Shown: positions 824 through 40,443 of the stretch, piece by piece
Layout of the letters: every line of letters starts with the position of its first letter
Numbering within the stretch: position 1 is the stretch's first letter
NCBI GenBank assembly: GCA_021773135.1
Contig: JAJFKP010000030.1
Location: 62,001 to 126,000 of the forward strand
Reading direction: 5' to 3'
Source of the DNA: Woeseiaceae bacterium
GTDB lineage: Bacteria > Pseudomonadota > Gammaproteobacteria > Steroidobacterales > Woeseiaceae
Length of the DNA: 64,000 nt
Position numbers and translations under genes: made by a program
Notes under the pieces: generated by a model
The model's database searches: none
Told to the model about the DNA's origin: nothing
Seen by the model: only the letters and a program-made list of their open reading frames with translations

Positions 824-1828
824 TTACATTTCTGTATCCAGCAAATCGCTGTAGCCGAACAATCCGGCCGATCCGCCGGTATGCACGAAGACTACATTTT
901 TCGCATCTGTGAAATGTCCCTTGTCAATCAGGTCGATCATGCCGGCAAGTCCCTTGCCGCTATAGACCGGATCGAACAACAGGCCTTCGAGCCTGGCCAG
1001 CAGCAAGACCGCTTCATTCATGCCTTCGGTCGGCATGCCATAGCCGGGTCCGACATAGTCACAATTGGCAACAACGTCGCCCCGCTGGATGATGCCGGGT
1101 GCGCCTACAAACTCTGCGGTTTCGACAGCAAGCTTGTAGACTTTTTCTTCCTGGTCTTTCCTGGCCGCGTTAACGCCGATGCCGAGGAGCGGTATGTTTG
1201 CGTGACTTGCCTTGAGGCCAACGAGCAGGCCAGCCTGCGTGCCGGCGCTGCCGGTCGCGTGCACAACGTGGTCAATGGCAATCATCTCGCGGTTCGCCTG
1301 CGACAGGAATTCGAGGGCGCAATCCACGTACCCCAGTGCGCCTATGGTATTCGAACCACCGCCCGGAATGATGTAGGGCGTCTTGCCCTGCGAACGAAGT
1401 TCTTTTGCCAGTGTTTCCATTTCGGCATTCATATCCGAGCCTTTGTCGACATCACGAATGTTTGCGCCGAAAATGCGATCGAGTAAAACATTGCCCGAAT
1501 TCAGGTACGCGTCAGCGGCATCGACCACACGTTTTTCAAAAATGAGTTCGCAGTCCATGCCCAGTTTGCAGGCGGCGGCGGCGGTCTGGCGCGCATGATT
1601 CGACTGTACTGCGCCTTGCGTGATCACTACGTCTGCTTTGTTGCGCAATGCATCCGCCATCAGGAATTCCAGCTTGCGGGTCTTGTTACCTCCGGTACCA
1701 AGTCCGGTGCAGTCGTCGCGTTTGACATAAATTTGCGGCCCGCCGAGATGTTTACTCAGACGCGGCAAGTGTTCCAGCGGAGTAGGCAGGTGTGCAAGGG
1801 ATACTCGGGGAAAGCGGGATAGCAGCAC
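824..1828 (-). CDS. dcyD: D-cysteine desulfhydrase (PLP, ACC-deaminase family)
   Basis: PLP-dependent fold-type II lyase. Members of this family convert D-cysteine to pyruvate, sulfide and ammonia; close relatives act on ACC or cysteate. The sequence tracks E. coli DcyD throughout: LSRFPRV near the start, [14 protein letters not shown] with the PLP-binding lysine at about residue 49, [10 protein letters not shown], the phosphate-cup-like [26 protein letters not shown] and the C-terminal [15 protein letters not shown] chose the GTG at 1828 (AAGGA 10 bases upstream); it gives 334 residues, close to the family's 328. A longer ATG start at 1870 would overlap the racemase gene ahead of it. It lies 13 bases downstream of the amino-acid racemase on the same strand, a likely two-gene unit handling D-amino acids. 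Cysteate or another D-amino acid as substrate cannot be excluded. Confidence 0.88.
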
Positions 1829-1841
1829 GATTCGTCGTTCC

Positions 1842-2573
1842 TTATGCGTTGGTTGAGGTGAATGATGCAAGACCGGTGGCTAATTCCACGGTACGCCTTG
1901 CCAGTATGTTAGTCGACTCGATCACGGGTACCGGGGAATCCGCGGCGCCGAACACCAGCGGGATTTCGGTGCAACCTGCGATCAGCACTGCCGCACCGTC
2001 TTCAACCAGGGCTGCGGCAATAGACCGCATGCCCTGCCGTACCGCGGCGCTCTGATCGCCGGCCTTGACGGCGTTGATGAGTTGCATCAGTTGGCCAGTC
2101 TGTGTTTCGTTTGTAATGACGGATTGCCTGCCGGATTTCCCGATCACACGCTGGTAAATACCGGACTGCAGGCAGGCACCAGTTGCCATTACGCCCACCG
2201 ACCGGGCATCCGGACACAACCGTTCTATCTCGGCGACGGACTCTTCGATAAGGTCGACAAAGGGTATCGACGTCGTTGACCGTACATCATCAAGGAACAC
2301 ATGCGCCGTATTGCACACCAGCACCAGGAAATCTGCGCCCGCGGCCTCCAATCGTCGTGCCATGATGCCCAGACGCGGCGTAACATCATCGTTCCCGGAG
2401 GCTATCGCCCGCTGGCGATTGGGGATAGTTGGATCCTGGTCAACGATCATATGAATGTGATCCTGATCACAGGCCGCATCGGTCAGCGCAACGACCCTTG
2501 CCATGAAATCCACCGTGGCATCCGGTCCCATGCCGCCCATAACGCCGACCGTCTTATGTGCCTTTTTGACCAT
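1842..2573 (-). CDS. aspartate/glutamate racemase family protein
   Basis: Cofactor-independent racemase of the Asp/Glu racemase superfamily, 243 residues. It opens with the typical [12 protein letters not shown] motif (residues 9-20). The two catalytic cysteines are both visible: C87 in VCNTAH and C201 in AGCTEIPL, so it should be able to racemise. Substrate (aspartate, glutamate or a broad range) cannot be told from sequence. The ATG at 2573 is preceded by GGGAATTA; a longer frame to 2642 adds a poorly conserved cysteine-rich leader and I reject it. No signal peptide, so cytoplasmic. Followed closely by the D-cysteine desulfhydrase gene. It is divergent from the exported 166-residue protein at 2699, so the 125 bases between them must hold two promoters. 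Confidence 0.85.
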
Positions 2574-2698
2574 TAATTCCCAGCGCAGGATTGACTGGCG
2601 GCGAGAATAACATTCTTTGCCAAATCTGCAGCAGTACTCCAACCTGCTTCCGCAATCAGTTACCCTATCGCCTGATTTTCTCCAACGAGGTCGTCATC

Positions 2699-3199
2699 AT
2701 GCGTAACCATGCTACTTTTGCGCTCCTCCTGGCATCATTTTGGTGGTCTGTCGCTGCTCCCGCCGCGGAAGACACACCGGGTATCGACCCCAGATCCTAC
2801 AACCTGGGCATTATGGGTGGCTTTGCGGAAGTCGTGCGACTGGGCGTCAAGAAACTCGCGCTTAGTGAAGTCATGTCGCCGGAAGAGATGGATGACGTGA
2901 TGCAGGATGCCCAGACCATAGCCGAGCGCAACGAGGTTATGATCTGGCGTGAAACCGATTTCCTGGTTACCGATCTCTATCCTGCAGATGTTGCAGAAGG
3001 CAAACACGTACTGCTGATTTACACCGGCGACACGCTGGACGAATACCTGGCACTAAAAGCGGACAAGGCGGCGCTGGTCGCGAACAATCGGTACATGGGG
3101 AAGGCCCGCGAAGATATCGCGCGGCGCTTTGGCAGGTTGCTGAGCTATCCGGATTCCGTGATTGACAACTTGCTGGACCAACAATCAAAAAATAATTAA
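2699..3199 (+). CDS. exported hypothetical protein, 166 aa
   Basis: I do not recognise this family. The ATG at 2699 has AACGAGG 8 bases upstream and starts a clear signal peptide (MRNHATFALLLASFWWSVAAPA, cleavage after AAPA or near AAE), so a periplasmic or secreted product is expected. The mature part is about 145 residues, acidic, without cysteines, and probably alpha/beta: it contains a helical EVMSPEEMDDVMQDAQTI segment and a LLIYTGDTLDEYLALK segment. An upstream in-frame start at 2591 would place a long tail ahead of the signal peptide and is unlikely. It sits 11 bases ahead of the TPR lipoprotein gene on the same strand, so the two are probably co-transcribed. Confidence 0.7.
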   Translation: MRNHATFALLLASFWWSVAAPAAEDTPGIDPRSYNLGIMGGFAEVVRLGVKKLALSEVMSPEEMDDVMQDAQTIAERNEVMIWRETDFLVTDLYPADVAEGKHVLLIYTGDTLDEYLALKADKAALVANNRYMGKAREDIARRFGRLLSYPDSVIDNLLDQQSKNN

Positions 3200-3210
3200 G
3201 CAGGGATACG

Positions 3211-4821
3211 ATGATGAAAAAAACTCTGATCAGCGCAGCAGCGTGCTTGAGTTTAGCTGCCTGTGCGACCAACGGAACAAGCGGGGACAGTTCAACCGGC
3301 ATGGCGATGAGCGATGCAGAGCCTGCGTTTCTCGCACCGATCGATTACATTCCGACTGCGCTCGGCGACTATCGCTGGACTATCACAACCAACAGTCCGT
3401 CAGCGCAGGACTATTTTACGCAGGGCATCCAGCTGCGCTGGGCGTACAACGTAAACGAGGCCGCCCGCTCTATGGCCGAGGCACGCCGTATCGATGCCAA
3501 TTGCGCCATGTGCTACTGGGGGGAGGCCTTCGCGCTTGGATCTTTCCTTAATGGCGGCATGAGCACCGAGAAAGCGCCGCACGCACATGCGGCGATAGAA
3601 AAGGCGGTAGCGCTTGCAGGCAATGCCACTGACATCGAACGCGACCTGATCATGGCTGCCCGCGTGCGCTACCCGGCCGAATACGATCCGGCAAAGCGCC
3701 GCCCGGTTGACGAGGCGTTCGCGGCAGAGATGGCAAAAGTCTACGCTAAGTATCCCGACAGTCATGAGGTCGCGGTGGTCTACGCGGTAGCGCTATTCCT
3801 GCTGGAGGAACGCCGCGGTTACCGCGACATTGCCGATCCGGACCTGATACGACTACACGGTGTATTGACCAAGGTGCTTGACGAGGATATTACCCATCCG
3901 GGCGCCTGCCACCTGTATATCCATGCGACCGAATCAAGCCAGGAACCGGGACGAGCGCTTGCCTGTGCCGATTATCTAAGCGACGCAGTGCCGGTTGCCA
4001 GTCACATCCAGCACATGCCTTCGCACACCTGGAACGAAGTTGGTCACTGGGGAGATTCGGTGCGGGCCAACATCAAGGCCTGGCATTCGGATTTGAAAGC
4101 AGCGGAAAACAAAGGCTTCTCTTACGCGCCGAATCATAATCTGCATATGCTGCTGTTCGCGGCATCGATGGATGGCCAGGGCGCCGTCGCCACACAGGCA
4201 GGCAAAGACTACTCAAAGCTCGGCAATAACTCGATGTACGAGGTGCTGACGCTGTTGAGATTCGGCCGATTCGACGAAGTACTCGAGGTGACTTCGCGCC
4301 CGGACGGCGAAGTTGAAGGTGGTTTCTGGGATTTCGCCCAGGGCTATGCGGAATTGCGTGAGGGTAATATGAATGCGGCAAAACGGTATCTCGCCAAGGT
4401 TCAGAATCTCGCTGCAAACTCTGATGGCATATTCCGTTTTCATGCAGCCGAGCAGCTGATGAGCCTGTCCGCCAGTATTTTACAGGGCGAGATCTTAAGG
4501 GCCGAGGGAAATCTGGACGCCGCAATCGTGGCGTTTCAGGACGCTGCGGCCTGGGACGACAAACAGAAATACGACGAACCTGAACCGATACCTTATGCCG
4601 CTCGACACTGGCTGGGTGCCGCGTTGATCGAAGCAGGACGATACGCAGAGGCGGAGCAGGAGTATCGCACTGAGCTCGCAGATCATCCGCACAACGTCTG
4701 GTCACTGCACGGCCTGATGGCCGCGCTCGAGGCACAGGGCAAGACTGACGCCGACGTTGCAGCAGATTATGCCGCCAGCAGCGCACGTATGGACACTTAC
4801 ATCACGTCTTCGCGGTTCTGA
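3211..4821 (+). CDS. TPR-repeat lipoprotein
   Basis: A 536-residue lipoprotein: the signal peptide ends in a lipobox LAAC with C18, followed by a Ser/Thr/Gly-rich linker. The rest is helical and reads as tetratricopeptide-type repeats, for example AYNVNEAARSMAEARRIDA with CAMCYWGEAFALG near residues 80-115 and GRYAEAEQEYRTELADHP near the C-terminus. Two short conserved-looking blocks (LYIHATESS and HIQHMPSHTWNEVGHW, residues about 235-280) are rich in His and aromatic residues and are typical of a family of TPR proteins found in marine Gammaproteobacteria and Bacteroidetes. Function unknown; a scaffold in the outer membrane or periplasm is the usual inference. Probably co-transcribed with the exported protein just upstream. 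Confidence 0.8.
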   Translation: MMKKTLISAAACLSLAACATNGTSGDSSTGMAMSDAEPAFLAPIDYIPTALGDYRWTITTNSPSAQDYFTQGIQLRWAYNVNEAARSMAEARRIDANCAMCYWGEAFALGSFLNGGMSTEKAPHAHAAIEKAVALAGNATDIERDLIMAARVRYPAEYDPAKRRPVDEAFAAEMAKVYAKYPDSHEVAVVYAVALFLLEERRGYRDIADPDLIRLHGVLTKVLDEDITHPGACHLYIHATESSQEPGRALACADYLSDAVPVASHIQHMPSHTWNEVGHWGDSVRANIKAWHSDLKAAENKGFSYAPNHNLHMLLFAASMDGQGAVATQAGKDYSKLGNNSMYEVLTLLRFGRFDEVLEVTSRPDGEVEGGFWDFAQGYAELREGNMNAAKRYLAKVQNLAANSDGIFRFHAAEQLMSLSASILQGEILRAEGNLDAAIVAFQDAAAWDDKQKYDEPEPIPYAARHWLGAALIEAGRYAEAEQEYRTELADHPHNVWSLHGLMAALEAQGKTDADVAADYAASSARMDTYITSSRF

Positions 4822-32632: not shown

Positions 32633-33502
32633 ATGAAAACAGCATCATTGACAGTGGTATTGACTACAATTATTTGCTCATTCGCATTCGCACAGGACGG
32701 TGGAATTTCCTGGCGATCGACTGAATTGGCGCCAGGCCTGCAAATGCTCGAGGGACAGGGCGGTTTTCCAGGCGGAAATCTTAGCCTGCTTACTGGCGAT
32801 GATGGCATCGTGCTGATTGACGGAGGACTGACGGAGACCTCGGCCATGACGGTTGCGACCATCGAGCGCATGACCGACGGTCCGGTTAATTTCCTGATTA
32901 ACACGCATGCCCATGGCGACCACACGGGTTCGAATTCCCCGATGATGCGCGGCGACACGACGGTCGTGGCCCACGATAACCTGCGGCGCGCGCTTCTCGA
33001 AGACGAGCAGTTCGACAAAAGCGGGCTGCCCGAACTCACGTTCAGTGAGTCCGTGACGTTTCATCTCAACGGCCACAATGCGTTCGTCTTTTTTATTCCC
33101 AGCGCACACACCAGCGGCGACTCGGCGATCCACTTCCCCGAAGTAAACGTCCTGCATGCAGGCGATGTTTTTTTTAACAAGGTTTTCCCTTTCATTGACC
33201 TCGATGGCGGTGGCAGTGTCGACGGATTTATCACGGGCCAGCAAAAATTGCTGGGCATGGCTGATGACGATACGCAGATCATTCCCGGCCACGGCCCGCT
33301 TGCCGACAAGGACGACCTGCAGGCGGCCGTCGATATGCTCATGGACGCAAAATCAAAAGTTAAAGCGCTGGTCGACGCCGGCATGTCGAATGAGCAGGTA
33401 CTCGAAAATAACCCGCTTTCCGTTTATGACAGCTGGAGCTGGGACTTTATTACCACTGAAGCCATGACGAATACGCTATATCGCTCACTAACGAGCAACT
33501 AG
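32633..33502 (+). CDS. exported MBL-fold metallo-hydrolase
   Basis: A 289-residue MBL-fold protein. ATG 32633 follows AGGA at 7 bases and opens a signal peptide (ASLTVVLTTIICSFAFAQ). The zinc motif NTHAHGDHTGSN (about 96-107) is intact, followed by SAHTSGDSAIHF, VLHAGDVFF and IPGHGPL. The domain order, length and exported location match the MBL gene at 15899, so the two are paralogues with different substrates or alternative alleles of one function. Function beyond hydrolysis of an ester or lactam-like bond is not readable. Confidence 0.85.
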   Translation: MKTASLTVVLTTIICSFAFAQDGGISWRSTELAPGLQMLEGQGGFPGGNLSLLTGDDGIVLIDGGLTETSAMTVATIERMTDGPVNFLINTHAHGDHTGSNSPMMRGDTTVVAHDNLRRALLEDEQFDKSGLPELTFSESVTFHLNGHNAFVFFIPSAHTSGDSAIHFPEVNVLHAGDVFFNKVFPFIDLDGGGSVDGFITGQQKLLGMADDDTQIIPGHGPLADKDDLQAAVDMLMDAKSKVKALVDAGMSNEQVLENNPLSVYDSWSWDFITTEAMTNTLYRSLTSN

Positions 33503-33554: not shown

Positions 33555-35399
33555 TTAGCTGTCGAGTACTTCCATTACAGCCCGGTGACCATGATAGATT
33601 GCTGAGTCGGTATTGGCGGCCGCCCCGGCGTCCGAATTGGCGATTGATATGCGCCCAAACGACTGTCGGCCGCGCACCCAGGGTTTGTCGCTCTCGCTCT
33701 GGTAGTCGGGCTCCCACAAAAGTCCGGGGCTGTACGAATAACCGTGCGCCCAGCGATTGACAGTGATACCCGAGATGTCACGCTCTGCGTCGAAGCCTGC
33801 TCCGGCAAGTGCCTGATCCAGCTGATCGCGCACATGCTGCTCAAATGTAGAGAATGGCGTTTCAAGAAGTTTGCGCCGACCCGCCCGCCACTGTTCCGGC
33901 CCCTGGATATCATTGAAATAGGGCACGTAGCACATGTGTAGCACCATTGGATCGTCAGGCGATTTGCCAAACGCATAGTTGCCCAGTGAGACCGGGTAAT
34001 CCAATTCAACCTGTTTGAAGAAATCGTTGGTGTAGAAAACGAACTTGATGCCAAGATCGGCGAACGAACGCCAGTTCGGAATCATTACCTTGGTGTAGGT
34101 GAGTGGAATTTTGACGTTATACGCAAGGCCCTGTTTCTGGGCTTCCGGTAGTTCGGAGCAGATATACGGAATCGCACTGTTATAACAGGCCATGATGCAA
34201 TTTTTCGCACGCACGGTATGTGGGGTGCCGGAGTGAACGTAGGTCACATCTACTGCCGACTGATTGCTCGTGTGAGTGGCGTTGACGACTGTGCTGTTCA
34301 GGCGTATACGCACGTCGGCATCCGGCAGGTCGAGCTGTGCGTAGTCGACCCGCGCCGTTACAACATCTTCCATCGTCGATCCGGGCACGGCATGCGGAAT
34401 AAGTTTCCTCACCAATAATCGGGCGATCGAGGCGTTGCCATCCGGAAAATGAAAAATATACGGCTCGCTGCCGCGACCACCTTTGCGCGGCACCGTATGT
34501 TCCAGACCGGGCATGCCACCGCCATCCGTGTAGCCGAGAACGTAAATGGCAGGCACCTCGTCCATACCGACGCACCAGTAACTCATGCCCCAGCGCTGAA
34601 ACATTTCCAGCACCTGGTAGTCGACCTTGACGTAGTCACGAAGATACTCGCGATAGCTGATCTTGCTTAACAGGGCAATTTTTTCCTCCCGGGTCTTGCC
34701 GGGCAGATAGTCACGTTCGTCGTTAAAGGCGCGCACCAGGTCTGCTTTCGCGGTGTCACTCAGCGGGGACTGTGCTGCAAACTCCTCCCATGGCCTGGTC
34801 CCGTAACCGGTCACCAGCTTGCGCTGGCCGTAAGTCTCCTGATCGAACGCAATCGCATACGACAGGTCCATCGAGGAATAAAGGTCCTGATCGTAATAAT
34901 CGTAAAACCGCTGCATGTCGATGCCCAGGTCTCGCAATAACTCAAGCGATATGTCCTCGTAGCTCGACGGCGTGTCGATAGACTCAGTGCCGCCATAGCC
35001 TATTCGCGTTTCACCGTTGACTTTGAATTCGTTACGTTTGGCATGGCCGCCAAAATCGTCGTGATTATCGACGACAAGAATGCGTGCAGCCGGATTCTCC
35101 TTTTGATAAAAATGCGCCGCAGACAGACCGCTGATTCCGCCACCAACAATGACGAGATCAACCTCCTCCTGCGGAGATTCGACGGGCCAAGTTGCTCCTG
35201 AGACACGCGCATGCATGGTTTCCCACGAACCTGCATGACTTCCGCGCAGTCCCGTTTTTGCCGGCGGGTAATAGTCTGCCCCGAGCGAAAATTTCGAAGT
35301 ATCGGCACCGAATACCTCGGTCCAGGGGCTTAACAGTGACGCGCCAATGGCGACCTGGGTGCCATTCAGGAAATCACGTCGCGTAACCTTGTCTTTCAT
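33555..35399 (-). CDS. Tat-exported FAD oxidoreductase, spermidine-dehydrogenase-like
   Basis: A 614-residue flavoprotein starting at ATG 35399 (GAAGAA just upstream). A Tat signal with twin arginine (VTRRDFLNG, residues 4-12) marks export of the folded protein. The FAD Rossmann motif DLVIVGGGISGLSAAHFYQKENP lies at about residues 78-100, then DNHDDFGGHAKRNEF. The closing FAD segment is near IYHGHRAVMEV at the C-terminus. The overall pattern resembles Pseudomonas SpdH, which oxidises spermidine in the periplasm. Substrate polyamine is inference. It is divergent from the permuted D-amino-acid oxidase, which also carries an export signal, and lies 2 kb from the amine dehydrogenase operon, so periplasmic amine oxidation is a plausible theme. 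Confidence 0.82.
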   Translation of the reverse strand: MKDKVTRRDFLNGTQVAIGASLLSPWTEVFGADTSKFSLGADYYPPAKTGLRGSHAGSWETMHARVSGATWPVESPQEEVDLVIVGGGISGLSAAHFYQKENPAARILVVDNHDDFGGHAKRNEFKVNGETRIGYGGTESIDTPSSYEDISLELLRDLGIDMQRFYDYYDQDLYSSMDLSYAIAFDQETYGQRKLVTGYGTRPWEEFAAQSPLSDTAKADLVRAFNDERDYLPGKTREEKIALLSKISYREYLRDYVKVDYQVLEMFQRWGMSYWCVGMDEVPAIYVLGYTDGGGMPGLEHTVPRKGGRGSEPYIFHFPDGNASIARLLVRKLIPHAVPGSTMEDVVTARVDYAQLDLPDADVRIRLNSTVVNATHTSNQSAVDVTYVHSGTPHTVRAKNCIMACYNSAIPYICSELPEAQKQGLAYNVKIPLTYTKVMIPNWRSFADLGIKFVFYTNDFFKQVELDYPVSLGNYAFGKSPDDPMVLHMCYVPYFNDIQGPEQWRAGRRKLLETPFSTFEQHVRDQLDQALAGAGFDAERDISGITVNRWAHGYSYSPGLLWEPDYQSESDKPWVRGRQSFGRISIANSDAGAAANTDSAIYHGHRAVMEVLDS

Positions 35400-35591
35400 T
35401 TCTTCATCCCCGTCAGTGTCGTAATATTTTCGCTGTACCAATTACGACCATGCGCTGCTGTATTTTCGCAATCCCTGACTTTACGAGAAGCGCTCTCGCA
35501 AGGAAAGCACACAGCATTCGGCCAGGGCAGAAATTGTGTTTCAGCCCCGGCCACACTACTCTTGGGAATTGCGAATATCACGGGGAAATCG

Positions 35592-36728
35592 ATGCGCACT
35601 CGAAATCAGCGACAACGTCGTAACGTTCTCAAGTCTCTGGGGGCGGGTGCCACGGTCGCAGCAATGAGCGGCTGTACAGCGATGTCATCCAGCAGCGGGC
35701 GCTACTCGCGCCAGTACTCGAGAAACCCCTGGGTCGCACCGCGTATATCGATGGAGAACGTCATCCGCGAGGTGGTTGGACATCGCCCCTATCGCCCGTC
35801 CGGCTTTGTCGTCAGGAGCGAAAAGCTCGACGCTAAGACCATTGTTCACAACTACGGGCACGGTGGCGCCGGCATTACGTTGTCGTGGGGCTCTTCGGCG
35901 CTGGCAGTGCGGGAGACGCTGGGTATGGAGCACCGCGAAGCCGCTGTAATCGGCAGTGGCGTGATGGGCCTGACCACGTCGAGACTGCTGCAGGACGCCG
36001 GGTGGAAAGTTACGATTTATACGCGTGATATGGCGCGTCACACGACTTCCAACGTTGCCGGGGGCGAATGGGGAGTCGCAAGTGCGCATGACCCGGAGGT
36101 ATCGTCGCCCGCATTCAAATCCCAGCTGGCATTTGCTGCCCGCATTGCCCACCATGCTCATACCAACCTTGGCGGCGCAGATTACGGCATCCACTGGACT
36201 GAGTTATACAACCTGAGTGACCGGCCGTTCGATGCTACGCCTGGCAGCTACGATCATCTGTATCCCTACCAGACTGAACTGCAGCCGGACGAACATCCCT
36301 TTGACTCACCCTATGTGCGCGTCTCGCTAACGATGATGGTTGAGCCCGCCACTTTCCTGCGCCGCCTGACCGAGGATTTTCATCAGGCCGGTGGCGCCTA
36401 CGTCGTCAGGGATTTCAAAGACAAATCCGAGTTCGTCGCCATGGATGAGCCAGTGATATTCAACTGCACGGGCCTGGGCGCAGGCAAGCTGTTCGGTGAT
36501 ACCGAAATTACGCCGGCGAAGGGACAGCTTGTTTACATGCCGCCGGATCCGGCGGTCGATTACCTGACAATTGGTGGCGGCTCGGACCTGCTGTACATGT
36601 TTTCAAGATCCGATGTGCTCCTGCTGGGCGGCACATTCAAGGTTGGAGATTACTCAACCCACCCGGAACCCGCGGAAACTGCGCGCATGGTCGCCGGGCA
36701 TCAACGAATTTTCTCGAGCTTTGGCTGA
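35592..36728 (+). CDS. circularly permuted D-amino-acid-oxidase-like flavoprotein, exported
   Basis: A 378-residue DAO-family protein starting at ATG 35592, with GGGG 7 bases upstream. The basic N-terminus and AAMSGC motif suggest a lipoprotein-type or Tat-like export signal. In classical D-amino-acid oxidase the order is Rossmann GxGxxG first and the HNYGHGGxGxTxxWG strand near the end. Here VVGHRPYRPSGFVVRSEKL and IVHNYGHGGAGITLSWGS come first (about residues 57-102), then AVIGSGVMGLTTSRLLQDAG (about 117-136) and TTSNVAGGEWG. The protein ends right after LLLGGTFKVGDYS, where the classical enzyme would continue into the moved segment. It ends five bases from a convergent gene. FAD-binding residues look intact. 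Likely oxidises a D-amino acid or amine in the envelope. Confidence 0.83.
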   Translation: MRTRNQRQRRNVLKSLGAGATVAAMSGCTAMSSSSGRYSRQYSRNPWVAPRISMENVIREVVGHRPYRPSGFVVRSEKLDAKTIVHNYGHGGAGITLSWGSSALAVRETLGMEHREAAVIGSGVMGLTTSRLLQDAGWKVTIYTRDMARHTTSNVAGGEWGVASAHDPEVSSPAFKSQLAFAARIAHHAHTNLGGADYGIHWTELYNLSDRPFDATPGSYDHLYPYQTELQPDEHPFDSPYVRVSLTMMVEPATFLRRLTEDFHQAGGAYVVRDFKDKSEFVAMDEPVIFNCTGLGAGKLFGDTEITPAKGQLVYMPPDPAVDYLTIGGGSDLLYMFSRSDVLLLGGTFKVGDYSTHPEPAETARMVAGHQRIFSSFG

Positions 36729-37217: not shown

Positions 37218-38315
37218 ATGCGCGTCATCACTTTTCTATCCCTGTGCTTAGCCTTTTCAATAGCAGATGCCCAGATTCAGGCGCAGACGATGGGTCCGCC
37301 CGAGACAATGCCGGCGCCCGGACCAAACTGGTTCATGTCTGTGACAGAAGATGCCGGCTATGTATTTGACGCAAGCAGTGGTGAAATGTACGGACTCATT
37401 GCAATCTCCGGTCACACACCGGCCGTGCAACCCAGCATGGCGCGTCGCGAATTTTATGCCGCAGCGTCCTACTATTCGCGGGGTTCCTACGGAGAACGAA
37501 CGGACCTGCTCACGATTCACGATTTTGAAAACCTGTCGCCTGTTGCCGAGGTCGACATTCCTGAAAAGATTCTTGCGCTGCCATTCCGCGGCTACATTGG
37601 CCTGATGAGCAGCGGCAATTTCGTTGGTGTAGCCAACATGAATCCCGCGCAGTCCGTCTCAATCGTTAACGTTGAGAATCGCAGCTTCGTTACCGATATA
37701 TCGACGCCAGGCTGTGGTCTGATCATGCCGGTTGATAATGATGGGTTTATGAGTCTGTGTGGCGACGGCACGCTGCAACTGATTCAACTCGACGATGCCG
37801 GTAATGAATCGAACAGGGTGAGAAGCAGTCCGTTTTTTGAAATCCAGGAGGACCCGGTTTATGACCGACCACGCCCGACCCGTTCGGGCTGGTTGCTGCT
37901 ATCAAATGCGGGCAAGGTCTTCAATGTTACAACCGCCGGCACACGTATCGATATTAGTGAGCCCTGGTCAATCGTTACCGCCGAGGATGCGGCGGAAGGC
38001 TGGTACCCGGGCGGCACCCAGTTTCATACCATTCACAAAGAACTGGAACTCATGTACGTCGCCATGCACCAGGGCGAGCAGTACACACATCACGAACCGG
38101 GGACCGAGATCTGGGTTTTCGACCTGGCTGAGCAACGTCGCGTTGCCAGTATTGAGCTGGAAATTCCGGCAGCGATGCTAATGGTCACGCAGGAGGAAAA
38201 GCCGCTGTTGATCGTTGGTAACACTGACGGTGAAACCCATGTTTATGACGCCCTCACGTTCGTTCACCAGCGGATGATCGAGGGGCCGAAAGCGCGCCTG
38301 TTCGAAGATCTCTAA
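37218..38315 (+). CDS. mauB: amine dehydrogenase heavy (large) subunit, MauB/AauB-like
   Basis: Periplasmic heavy chain of a tryptophan-tryptophylquinone (TTQ) amine dehydrogenase, 365 residues, with a signal peptide (MRVITFLSLCLAFSIADAQ). It is a seven-bladed propeller family that carries the light chain and forms an alpha2beta2 enzyme oxidising primary amines to aldehydes and ammonia. The typical C-terminal motif is present: GTQFHTIHKELELMYVAMHQG, HHEPGTEIWVFDLAEQRRVASI. GAGGA lies 8 bases before the ATG. The gene leads the order heavy chain, MauE, MauD, light chain, cytochrome c. This fits the aromatic amine dehydrogenase (aau) arrangement of Alcaligenes as well as mau clusters, so aralkyl amines are as likely as methylamine. 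Confidence 0.85.
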   Translation: MRVITFLSLCLAFSIADAQIQAQTMGPPETMPAPGPNWFMSVTEDAGYVFDASSGEMYGLIAISGHTPAVQPSMARREFYAAASYYSRGSYGERTDLLTIHDFENLSPVAEVDIPEKILALPFRGYIGLMSSGNFVGVANMNPAQSVSIVNVENRSFVTDISTPGCGLIMPVDNDGFMSLCGDGTLQLIQLDDAGNESNRVRSSPFFEIQEDPVYDRPRPTRSGWLLLSNAGKVFNVTTAGTRIDISEPWSIVTAEDAAEGWYPGGTQFHTIHKELELMYVAMHQGEQYTHHEPGTEIWVFDLAEQRRVASIELEIPAAMLMVTQEEKPLLIVGNTDGETHVYDALTFVHQRMIEGPKARLFEDL

Positions 38316-38329
38316 GGAAAAGTCATACG

Positions 38330-38884
38330 ATGCTGGACCCGCTCATTGTAAAAGCAAGCTCGATCGGTCTCGGGCTGATGTTTCTGGTTGCGGCCTATCA
38401 CAAGTTCGCAGAGGGACCTGAATTTCGTGCGACGCTTTACGATTACCGCGTACTGCCTGCGGCGCTCGTGCCGGTTGCAGCGCGCGTAATCCCTGTGGTG
38501 GAACTTCTCCTTGGCGGCAGCTGGCTGGTTTTTTACTACCAGCCAACCCTAACTGCCGTCGCCAGCGCGGTTCTTCTCGGCATATATGCACTGGCGATCG
38601 GCGTCAACCTGGCCCGGGGCCGTCTGCATATCGACTGCGGCTGTGGCTTTGGCGGCAAAACAGATAGTGAACAGCTCATTACCGGCGGTCTGGTATTTCG
38701 AAATCTCATACTGCTGGGCATTGCGTTACTAACGCTGTTACCGACAACATCGAGAGCGTTCAGTGCCGGCGACTATGTCACTCTGTGTGCAGTATTGCTG
38801 GTCGCCACCCTGCTCTTTGCCGCGGCAAACCAGTTAATCGCGAACCGGGCATCGATCAATACCTGGAGAAAAGAACGTGACTGA
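38330..38884 (+). CDS. mauE: MauE, TTQ amine dehydrogenase maturation membrane protein
   Basis: A 184-residue polytopic membrane protein of the MauE family, with four hydrophobic segments (starting at IGLGLMFLVAAY, LVPVAARVIPVVELLLGG, AVASAVLLGIYALAIG and LILLGIALLTLLP) and the diagnostic HIDCGCGFGG cysteine motif between them. MauE works with MauD in the inner membrane to form the six disulfides of the light chain. AAGGAAAA lies 8 bases before the ATG, 14 bases after the heavy-chain stop. The end overlaps mauD by 8 bases. Confidence 0.92.
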   Translation: MLDPLIVKASSIGLGLMFLVAAYHKFAEGPEFRATLYDYRVLPAALVPVAARVIPVVELLLGGSWLVFYYQPTLTAVASAVLLGIYALAIGVNLARGRLHIDCGCGFGGKTDSEQLITGGLVFRNLILLGIALLTLLPTTSRAFSAGDYVTLCAVLLVATLLFAAANQLIANRASINTWRKERD

Positions 38885-39512
38885 AGCCATGCTCGTTTCA
38901 AACGTCGTTCTGTGGGTATTGGTTATTGTGCTAGCGCTGGTCGTTCTGGCGCTGGCCCGACAGGTCGGCGTATTACATGAACGCGTGGCACCGGCGGGTG
39001 CGCTAATGCCTACGACCGGACCAAAAGTCGGCGAACTCACCGAGCCCCTGCCCTTGACCGACATTAATGGCGCGTCATTAACAGTTGGCGGTCCGGACAA
39101 TGCCGGCATGCATAGCCTGGTGATGTTTATTTCGCCAACCTGCCCGGTGTGCAAGTCACTTGTGCCAACCGCCAAGTCGCTGGCCGGCAGTGAAAGCAAT
39201 CGGCTGCAACTTGTTTTCGCCAGCGATGGCGACAAACTCGAGCAACATCAGGCTTACGCTAGAGACCTGGACCTGGGCAACTACCATTATGTGCTTTCGG
39301 AAAAGCTGGGCATGACCTACGAGGTCAGTAAATTGCCTTTTGCCATTTTGATCGGCGCTGACGGCACGCTGGAGAGCAAGGGCCTGGTTAATACGCGCGA
39401 GCATCTTGAAAGCCTCATTGAGGCCATGGACTCAGGGATAGCGACGCTGCAGGATTATGTCGGCCTCGTCCAGCACGAACATGATAATTCGGTGAAGGAA
39501 AAAGCTTCATGA
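38877..39512 (+). CDS. mauD: MauD, thioredoxin-like light-chain maturation protein
   Basis: A 211-residue membrane-anchored, periplasm-facing thioredoxin-fold protein. The N-terminal helix VVLWVLVIVLALVVLALA anchors it. The active site CPVC appears in ISPTCPVCKSLVP (about residues 85-97), and the cis-Pro in VSKLPFAILIG. It probably isomerises or forms disulfides in the amine dehydrogenase light chain, together with MauE. The start is GTG at 38877 with GGAG upstream, overlapping mauE. It ends overlapping mauA by four bases (ATGA), so all these frames are translationally coupled. Confidence 0.9.
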   Translation: MTEAMLVSNVVLWVLVIVLALVVLALARQVGVLHERVAPAGALMPTTGPKVGELTEPLPLTDINGASLTVGGPDNAGMHSLVMFISPTCPVCKSLVPTAKSLAGSESNRLQLVFASDGDKLEQHQAYARDLDLGNYHYVLSEKLGMTYEVSKLPFAILIGADGTLESKGLVNTREHLESLIEAMDSGIATLQDYVGLVQHEHDNSVKEKAS

Positions 39513-40048
39513 ATAAAAACAGCATTGTTGACAAGACCTACTACTGGATCGACGAGACCGCGCGGAACCAGGCACTCAGGCTTGCACGAACGCTTTCTCG
39601 GCGCAATTTCCTGTCACGCCTGGGCATGTTCCTGGCGGGCGCGGCAACGTTGCCGCTGTTACCTGTATCGCGCGCGCTGTCACAGGAAAAAGTGCAGGAA
39701 ATTGGTGATCCGAAGAGCTGCGATTACTGGCGTTACTGCGCGATGGGCGGGGCACTTTGTACCTGTTGCGGCGGATCGATTACGACCTGCCCGCCTGGCT
39801 CAGAAACGTCACCGATTACCTGGGTCGGCACCTGCCGCAATCCGGTAGACGACCGCAATTACCTGATGTCCTACAACGACTGTTGTGGCAAGCCCGTTTG
39901 TCGTCGCTGCTTTTGCCATAACACCGAACGCGATCGTCCGGTCTACTTCCCGTCGAACGCGGGCAGCATATTGTGGTGTTTTGGCACGGCCGAACGGACC
40001 TATCACTGCACGGTAGCGGTTGTCCTGAGCGAAGCGTCGACGGACTGA
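39509..40048 (+). CDS. mauA: TTQ amine dehydrogenase light (small) subunit, MauA/AauA-like
   Basis: A 179-residue precursor with a long Tat-like leader (SRRNFLSRLGMFLAGAA). The mature part has the dense cysteine pattern that forms six disulfides. Both tryptophans that form TTQ are present: the Trp in SPITWVGTCRN and the Trp in SILWCFGTAE (equivalent to W57 and W108 of the Paracoccus enzyme), plus the catalytic Asp in MSYNDCCGK and Thr in RTYHCT. In the first cysteine motif, CDYWRYCAMGGALCTCC, Gly stands where methylamine and aromatic amine dehydrogenases have Asp (Asp32 in Paracoccus numbering). The CCGG, TCPPG and TSPITW wording is closer to aromatic amine dehydrogenase than to methylamine dehydrogenase. 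It overlaps the cytochrome gene by one base. Confidence 0.88.
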   Translation: MNKNSIVDKTYYWIDETARNQALRLARTLSRRNFLSRLGMFLAGAATLPLLPVSRALSQEKVQEIGDPKSCDYWRYCAMGGALCTCCGGSITTCPPGSETSPITWVGTCRNPVDDRNYLMSYNDCCGKPVCRRCFCHNTERDRPVYFPSNAGSILWCFGTAERTYHCTVAVVLSEASTD

Positions 40049-40443
40049 TGCGCGCGCTGCTGTTCGCGCTGTTGTTGCTCCCTGTCACGAGCATCGTTAG
40101 GGCAGATCCAAAAACCGACTACCTGCTCTATTGTCGCGGCTGCCACCTTGCGAACGGGGCCGGCGTATCACCAGTGGTACCTACCCTTATCGACGAGTTG
40201 GGCAAGCTGCTACAGGTGCAGGGTGGGCGCGAATACATCGTGCGCGTTCCCGGCGTATCGCAATCAGATATGAACGACCGGCGGCTCGCCGCTGTAATGA
40301 ACTGGATTGTGACCGAATTCAACAGCCGCACAGCTCCGCATGATTTTGAGCCTTACACGGCGGAATACATTGCTTCGGTGCGAGACAAAGTGCTCGCGGA
40401 TCCGTTGCGCCATCGTGCCGAGTTGCTGGCGAAGAGCAGATAG
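40048..40443 (+). CDS. small monohaem cytochrome c, likely amine dehydrogenase electron acceptor
   Basis: A 131-residue exported cytochrome: signal peptide MRALLFALLLLPVTSIVRA, then a single haem-binding motif LYCRGCHLANGAG (CxxCH). Axial Met is probably in QSDMNDRRLAAVMNW. Its ATG shares a base with the light-chain stop (TGATG), so expression is coupled. In methylamine systems electrons go to amicyanin and then cytochrome c551i; in the aromatic amine dehydrogenase cluster a small monohaem cytochrome gene follows the light chain. This arrangement suggests a direct acceptor role, in the periplasm. Confidence 0.85.
   Translation: MRALLFALLLLPVTSIVRADPKTDYLLYCRGCHLANGAGVSPVVPTLIDELGKLLQVQGGREYIVRVPGVSQSDMNDRRLAAVMNWIVTEFNSRTAPHDFEPYTAEYIASVRDKVLADPLRHRAELLAKSR

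Follow-up and report, generated by a model that had tools for sequence, protein, structure and literature searches.

A circularly permuted D-amino-acid oxidase-type flavoprotein represents a broad bacterial family of single origin

The locus and its flavoprotein gene

The stretch of DNA analysed here, called the window, comprises 64,000 nucleotides of a Woeseiaceae bacterium (contig JAJFKP010000030.1). On its plus strand, positions 35592..36728 encode a 378-residue protein (ATG start, TGA stop), a circularly permuted flavoprotein of the D-amino-acid oxidase/D-aspartate oxidase (DAAO/DASPO) type. The chain opens with a Tat-type signal (RRNVLK, residues 9-14) and, behind it, a lipobox-like Cys28 (35592..35675, plus strand); R9, R10 and C28 are each at least 90% conserved in an 18-row alignment. 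About residues 47-112 (35730..35927, plus strand) form a segment that Pfam DAO, phmmer and both family and segment profiles identify as the C-terminal piece of the classical enzyme, running from RPYRP through HNYGHGGxG into a helix. Within it, residues 64-72 read HRPYRPSGF, and the HNYGHGG signature occupies residues 86-92 in the ORF translation and the family alignment (35847..35867, plus strand), with HNYGHGGAGITLSWG starting at residue 86. The FAD and substrate domain, which corresponds to the N-terminal and middle part of the classical chain, follows at residues 113-378 (35928..36725, plus strand), and translation, hmmscan and alignment all place the GxGxxG FAD-binding motif, here GSGVMG, at residues 121-126 (35952..35969, plus strand). 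The first-pass annotation had put the signature near residue 90, ahead of a GxGxxG motif at about residue 120, in good agreement with these positions. It had also let the chain end just after GDYS, which proved incorrect: GDYS lies at residue 355 and 23 more residues follow, containing one further helix (360-373) in the AlphaFold2 model. Over the 378 codons, a comparison with an 82%-identical relative gave 62, 40 and 229 differences at codon positions 1, 2 and 3, respectively, and the window gene is therefore under protein-level constraint. All four family records with visible annotation call the product merely an 'FAD-dependent oxidoreductase'.

Amine dehydrogenase genes flank the flavoprotein gene on both sides. 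A divergent homologue of the spermidine dehydrogenase SpdH lies at 33555..35441 on the minus strand (phmmer E 4.2e-152 to 7d9i, query 33558-35399; also supported by synteny). Downstream, 37218..40443 on the plus strand encodes an aromatic-amine-dehydrogenase-type heavy chain, MauE, MauD, a TTQ-type light chain and a small CxxCH protein. Near these genes, 32633-33499 of the window (plus strand) encodes a metallo-beta-lactamase-fold protein that is nearest to 'quinoprotein relay system zinc metallohydrolase 2', below the cut-off. A second TTQ light-chain gene is present elsewhere in the same genome (G000 contig C44, 77686-78015).

Swapped order of the chain and its structural model

In an hmmscan, the window protein scored 88.1 bits with PF01266 (DAO; cut-off 27.9), split over two stretches, which places it in the DAO family. 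When the same profile was run on the whole genome of the window, the 5' end of the gene matched profile positions 298-350 (E 2.5e-5, by itself under the cut-off) and the downstream piece matched positions 2-304 (E 9.5e-18). A phmmer search of the PDB gave the same picture, with residues 112-366 aligned to 10-262 of the D-aspartate oxidase chain 6rkf (E 3.9e-24) and residues 57-107 aligned to 279-332 of that chain. A family profile produced the swapped two-piece match in all five DAAO/DASPO sequences with printed alignments. When only the moved piece was used as a profile (43 rows), 17 matches below 1e-5 were obtained among 177,635 PDB sequences, the best at 6.5e-14 and the next one beyond them at 0.5, and all 17 were C-terminal parts of DAAO or DASPO; a chance motif was ruled out on this ground. 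The window protein thus has both hallmarks of DAAO/DASPO, the HNYGHGGxG signature and the GxGxxG FAD motif, and departs from the classical order, in which the FAD strand comes first and HNYGHGG last. Two other flavoenzyme assignments were tried and rejected, namely the glycine oxidase ThiO (TIGR02352, 45.2 bits against a curated cut-off of 250.8) and the DadA-type D-amino acid dehydrogenase (NF001933, 23.1 bits against 383). We regard it as virtually certain that the order of the window protein is permuted relative to DAAO/DASPO. A circular permutation of a D-amino-acid oxidase had been proposed for this gene in the first-pass annotation, and sequence, profiles, phylogeny and a confident model now support it.

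AlphaFold2, run with the 18-row alignment, modelled the window protein with a pLDDT of 84 and a pTM of 0.81; residues 1-36 fell below pLDDT 50, and blocks of residues 41-110 reached 90-95. In both Foldseek and VIA-align, the top-ranking matches were DAAO and DASPO, with alignments confined to model residues 112-377, a limit expected because these aligners are sequential. VIA-align superposed 243-253 residues on human DASPO and mammalian DAAO with Z 18.7-19.6 at 2.5-2.8 Å, followed by Z 17.3-17.7 for the fungal enzymes and 13.6-14.8 for glycine oxidases, so that the unmoved part of the modelled protein has the DAAO fold. On strong but indirect grounds, the whole permuted chain is expected to keep the ordinary DAAO fold, in which the moved piece would sit at the FAD/substrate site. 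Modelled alone, the moved piece reached a pLDDT of only 67 and a pTM of 0.43, a poor prediction that would fit a segment depending on the remaining chain.

We also examined the active-site positions in 137 distinct permuted sequences and 15 classical rows, with pig DAAO as the reference for residue numbers and roles. Arg65 (35784..35786, plus strand) is the equivalent of pig DAAO Arg283, which binds the substrate carboxylate, and this arginine is invariant (137/137 permuted, 15/15 classical). Tyr335 (36594..36596, plus strand) is the equivalent of Tyr228, a position occupied by Tyr in 95 of the 137 permuted sequences and by His in 28. At the Leu51 position, Gln or Glu predominates in the permuted proteins and Leu or Val in the classical rows; together with the histidine found in those 28 sequences, this suggests that substrates may differ within the permuted family. 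At the position of pig Tyr224, which belongs to the active-site lid of mammalian DAAO, the window protein has Ser or a gap. Tyr is found there in 3 of the 137 permuted sequences, and in that loop in two of the 15 classical rows, one of them pig DAAO itself. Since Tyr224 is scarce in bacterial classical rows too, it does not mark the DAAO/DASPO group, and its loss was ruled out as a trait special to permuted proteins because nearly all bacterial classical ones do without it as well.

Spread, single origin and join of the permuted family

Relatives of the window gene are widespread. Within its taxonomic order, 35 of 296 genomes have a match (E ≤ 1e-8), as do 20 of 398 genomes in a phylum-wide sample (E ≤ 1e-10, at most four candidates scored per genome), with the window's own genome counted in both. 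A scan with one genome per species returned at least 582 relatives, counted irrespective of chain order, and the cultured species Sphingopyxis panaciterrae, Luteolibacter pohnpeiensis and Ekhidna lutea are among the sources. The best 80 of these at least 582, taken for a motif check, carry record titles from Gamma- and Alphaproteobacteria, Acidobacteriota, Gemmatimonadota, Verrucomicrobiota, Bacteroidota and others, and include chromosome-level records such as OY282382, OX638356 and NZ_CP115960. All 80 have one HNYGHGG-type motif, and in 76 the FAD motif lies behind it; the simple pattern used missed the FAD motif in L098, L099, L114 and L115. Profile classification of 139 matching frames assigned 132 to the permuted order, 5 to the classical order and 2 to truncated or frameshifted genes, the 132 representing 125 distinct sequences because some genes were sampled twice. 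All five classical frames come from Actinomycetota plasmid records, and one actinobacterial member, from Nonomuraea (L138), is permuted. Among 26 loci from Acidobacteriota genomes, 16 are permuted and eight classical (L181-L188), one (L193) has a split match in permuted order and one (L202) lacks a matching frame; ten Bacteroidota loci divide into two permuted and eight classical. The permuted order therefore spans at least six phyla, with some members on finished chromosomes. The first-pass annotation had suspected that permuted relatives exist unremarked, and at least 137 distinct ones were classified. Our family counts use 137 distinct permuted sequences drawn from the larger pool of matches; outside them stand the truncated L071, the broken L145, the split-match L193 (permuted), L202, exact duplicates, L207, L208, and L204 and L206, both permuted and without the strict motif.

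Several single records are worth noting. The Mesorhizobium locus L145 has its oxidase gene split by a frameshift. In L188, from an Acidobacteriota genome, positions 1486-3684 encode a DAAO-like protein that is divergent, has the classical order and extends for about 350 additional residues at its C-terminus. Of 28 matching Bacteroidota genomes, eight encode a pair of matches, the frames being about 320-330 and 375-397 residues long. The Acidobacteriota genomes G744, G956 and G980 contain three or four moved-segment matches each, and all four in G744 were classed as permuted; the permuted family is expanded in some Acidobacteriota.

For phylogenetic analysis, the permuted proteins were rotated into classical order beforehand. 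On a 59-row tree, the permuted set (42 representatives of the 137) formed one side of a branch with support 96/89, and 98% of 200 bootstrap trees were explained by one change of order. We then considered a 69-row tree (68 different rows, 44 of them permuted, Bacteroidota included), rooted with three DAO-superfamily proteins whose matching parts follow the classical order. Its 44 permuted rows formed a clade (99/97), and a single change of order was enough for every one of 200 bootstrap trees (100%). The clade is nested among classical-order DAAOs, with a Bacteroidota subfamily of about 380 residues as its sister (98/95), and we therefore trace the permutation to one old event. Removal of the moved piece from the 69 rows left the support at 97/98, with one change in 96% of 200 bootstrap trees, in a bootstrap not fully settled; a quick 59-row tree without that segment also gave one change, with weak support (SH-aLRT 16).

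The spacing at the join is nearly constant. From the motif His to the first Gly of GxGxxG, 122 of the 137 permuted proteins have 35 residues, and the five proteins of the L136-L139/L146 group have 39; the three of this group included in the 69-row tree are the first branches among the permuted rows. In ten of 12 bacterial classical proteins (two of them near-identical), the two chain ends sum to 32-47 residues, and the remaining two, with N-terminal extensions, reach 61 and 79; these sums are rough because the start codons of nine of the 12 were taken as the nearest Met. The join thus looks like a classical C-terminus fused directly, head to tail, to a classical N-terminus. Circular permutations usually arise by tandem duplication and subsequent trimming. 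A duplicated-end intermediate was not found: each of the best 80 of the at least 582 loci has one motif copy, no frame among the 139 or at the 26 Acidobacteriota loci has the moved piece at both ends, and the closest two segment matches on one contig in 297 Acidobacteriota genomes (at most 20 candidates scored per genome) lie about 14 kb apart.

Could the swapped order be only apparent? A misassembly joining two halves of a classical gene in the wrong order, which had been named from the outset as an outcome that would overturn the permutation, was ruled out by the permuted order of 132 of the 139 matching frames. The same order and near-constant spacing recur in independent assemblies of many phyla, chromosome-level records included, and we consider such an error practically negligible. 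A segment of other ancestry, that is, an unrelated N-terminal domain with a look-alike motif, would account for the lack of a confident fold when the segment is modelled alone. Yet its profile leads to DAAO/DASPO C-terminal parts and nothing else below 1e-5, permuted frames have a single motif copy in front position, and the segment length fits the classical ends, which makes this explanation very improbable as well. We conclude that the permutation is real, old and of single origin, and that it defines a broad bacterial family.

Export, gene neighbourhood and proposed function

Export of the protein had been claimed in the first-pass annotation, and the prediction extends to most relatives. 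The Pfam TAT_signal model scored 15.4 bits on the window protein, below its cut-off of 22.7; by a simple rule, a twin-arginine-type signal is found in 127 of the 137 permuted proteins, and 95 of the 137, all among these 127, also have a lipobox-like Cys. Of the ten that the rule missed, L038, L080, L131 and L199 do have a Tat-type signal by eye, and in two others too little upstream frame is left for a call, because of a contig edge in L114 and an in-frame stop in L135. The remaining four, L136, L138, L139 and L146, show no Tat-type signal by rule or by eye among the 137 sequences. All four have the 39-residue join of the first-branching group, whose other member, L137, has a signal. Export is therefore typical of the family, yet need not date from the permutation.

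In the genus of the window, the permuted gene sits between the SpdH gene and the aromatic-amine-dehydrogenase-type TTQ gene group. The SpdH and heavy-chain neighbours are kept in six same-genus loci (L010-L013, L015 and L016) and in the Woeseia locus L039. The L039 gene, 82% identical to the window gene, looks like the same gene as that of L010, and this identity makes Woeseia or a close relative the probable source of the window. Across the 109 loci searched, 29 of them with flanks of only about 1.5 kb, the complete amine dehydrogenase neighbourhood is limited to the window's genus, and in one further locus (L107, Gemmatimonadota) an SpdH-like gene lies immediately upstream. No neighbour is conserved generally across the family, as judged from frames clustered around 85 loci, frames beside 77 loci and Pfam searches of 112 neighbours (picked from 142 listed, plus one or two added by hand), where the largest count was five, for a protease subunit family seemingly found mainly beside sphingomonad genes. 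A CxxCH frame directly adjoins the permuted gene in one of the 77 loci, that of Kozakia, where a cytochrome c gene directly follows it, and occurs anywhere in the flanks in nine of 77. In Rhizobium and Bradyrhizobium, a plasmid-borne member that lacks a signal is flanked by an FAD enzyme on one side and a thiamine-diphosphate enzyme on the other; for the Rhizobium copy, the former is of berberine-bridge type and the latter is nearest to indolepyruvate/phenylpyruvate decarboxylase, below the model cut-off. Within the rhizobial plasmid set, the thiamine-diphosphate enzyme gene adjoins the permuted DAAO-like gene in all of L139, L146 and L145, and an annotated FAD-binding oxidoreductase stands on its other side in L139 and L146. 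Because neighbours are not conserved across the family, the functional reading draws on few loci; these fit 2-oxo acid production from amino acids and, perhaps, an exported branch passing electrons to cytochromes.

A single rearrangement turned an ancestral classical gene into the permuted form, and the simplest route that we can propose is tandem duplication with in-frame fusion and later trimming. The rearrangement left the C-terminal piece, with the substrate-binding Arg strand, the HNYGHGG turn and the last helix, ahead of the FAD-binding strand. The spacing and the confident model suggest that the old termini, now fused, make a short link from helix to strand, and that the new ones lie after classical residue ~269. 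The signal suggests folding and FAD loading in the cytoplasm, followed by Tat export and anchoring as a lipoprotein. The anchored protein may then convert a D-amino acid or a similar substrate to the imino or 2-oxo acid by oxidation at the alpha-amino group, with the substrate carboxylate probably held by Arg65 and Tyr335 and with either O2 or a periplasmic c-type cytochrome as the candidate electron acceptor. The conserved residues and the few informative neighbourhoods make it somewhat probable that the window protein acts, once exported, as a D-amino-acid oxidase or dehydrogenase. As a whole explanation, DAAO/DASPO-type permuted origin combined with Tat export, lipoprotein anchoring and D-amino-acid oxidation is likewise the account that we moderately favour.

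The same permuted fold might instead serve another substrate, an N-substituted or polyamine-derived amino acid or some other carboxylate amine rather than free D-amino acids, made in the periplasm, for example, by the neighbouring amine dehydrogenases. The polar Leu51 position of most permuted sequences, against Leu or Val in most classical ones, and the spermidine and aromatic-amine-type dehydrogenases beside the gene in the window's genus speak for such a role. We nevertheless find it rather unlikely: the Arg283 equivalent is invariant and that of Tyr228 mostly kept, the amine dehydrogenase neighbourhood in full does not extend beyond one genus, and the decarboxylase-like enzyme beside the signal-less Rhizobium member fits the 2-oxo acid products of amino acid oxidation. 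Returning to D-amino-acid oxidation, a bolder version is possible, albeit doubtful: the permuted clade may form its own class of D-amino-acid dehydrogenases, exported by Tat and anchored in the membrane, that originated when a bacterial DAAO was circularly permuted once, deliver electrons to periplasmic c-type cytochromes and not to O2, and now count among the common DAAO-type enzymes of Pseudomonadota, Acidobacteriota and Gemmatimonadota. The permutation concerns a textbook flavoenzyme and extends over several phyla; its permuted and unpermuted forms offer a ready comparison for folding, FAD loading and export, and the family points to a little-explored periplasmic oxidation route for D-amino acids or related amines in environmental bacteria.

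Compared with known systems, the permuted proteins share both chain parts, GxGxxG, HNYGHGG and the substrate Arg with DAAO (EC 1.4.3.3; pig 1an9, Rasamsonia 7ct4) and DASPO (human 6rkf), which are also the best fold matches of the window model, and they usually share the Tyr228 equivalent too. They differ in the swapped order of the two parts and in their Tat-type export signal. An equivalent of pig DAAO Tyr224 is absent from all permuted proteins except those three, and likewise from nearly all bacterial classical sequences. The Asp-specific Arg216 of DASPO is not kept in the window protein (alignment, by eye). The sister subfamily of divergent Bacteroidota DAAO-like proteins (L209, L211-L213, L215 and L216; frames of 379-390 residues) has the same motifs as the permuted clade, in classical order. 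Murzin reportedly described, in 1998, a natural circular permutation in a flavin-binding domain whose fold differs from that of DAAO. To our knowledge, natural circular permutations of a whole enzyme that stem from one event, with living classical relatives on the tree, are uncommon. Searches of an open-access library turned up no report of a permuted DAAO and no case in the DAO superfamily. The cpRAS GTPases (PMC2430557) are another natural circular permutation, in which a rearranged order of fold parts has been kept in a natural family, as it has here, in a fold unrelated to that of DAAO.
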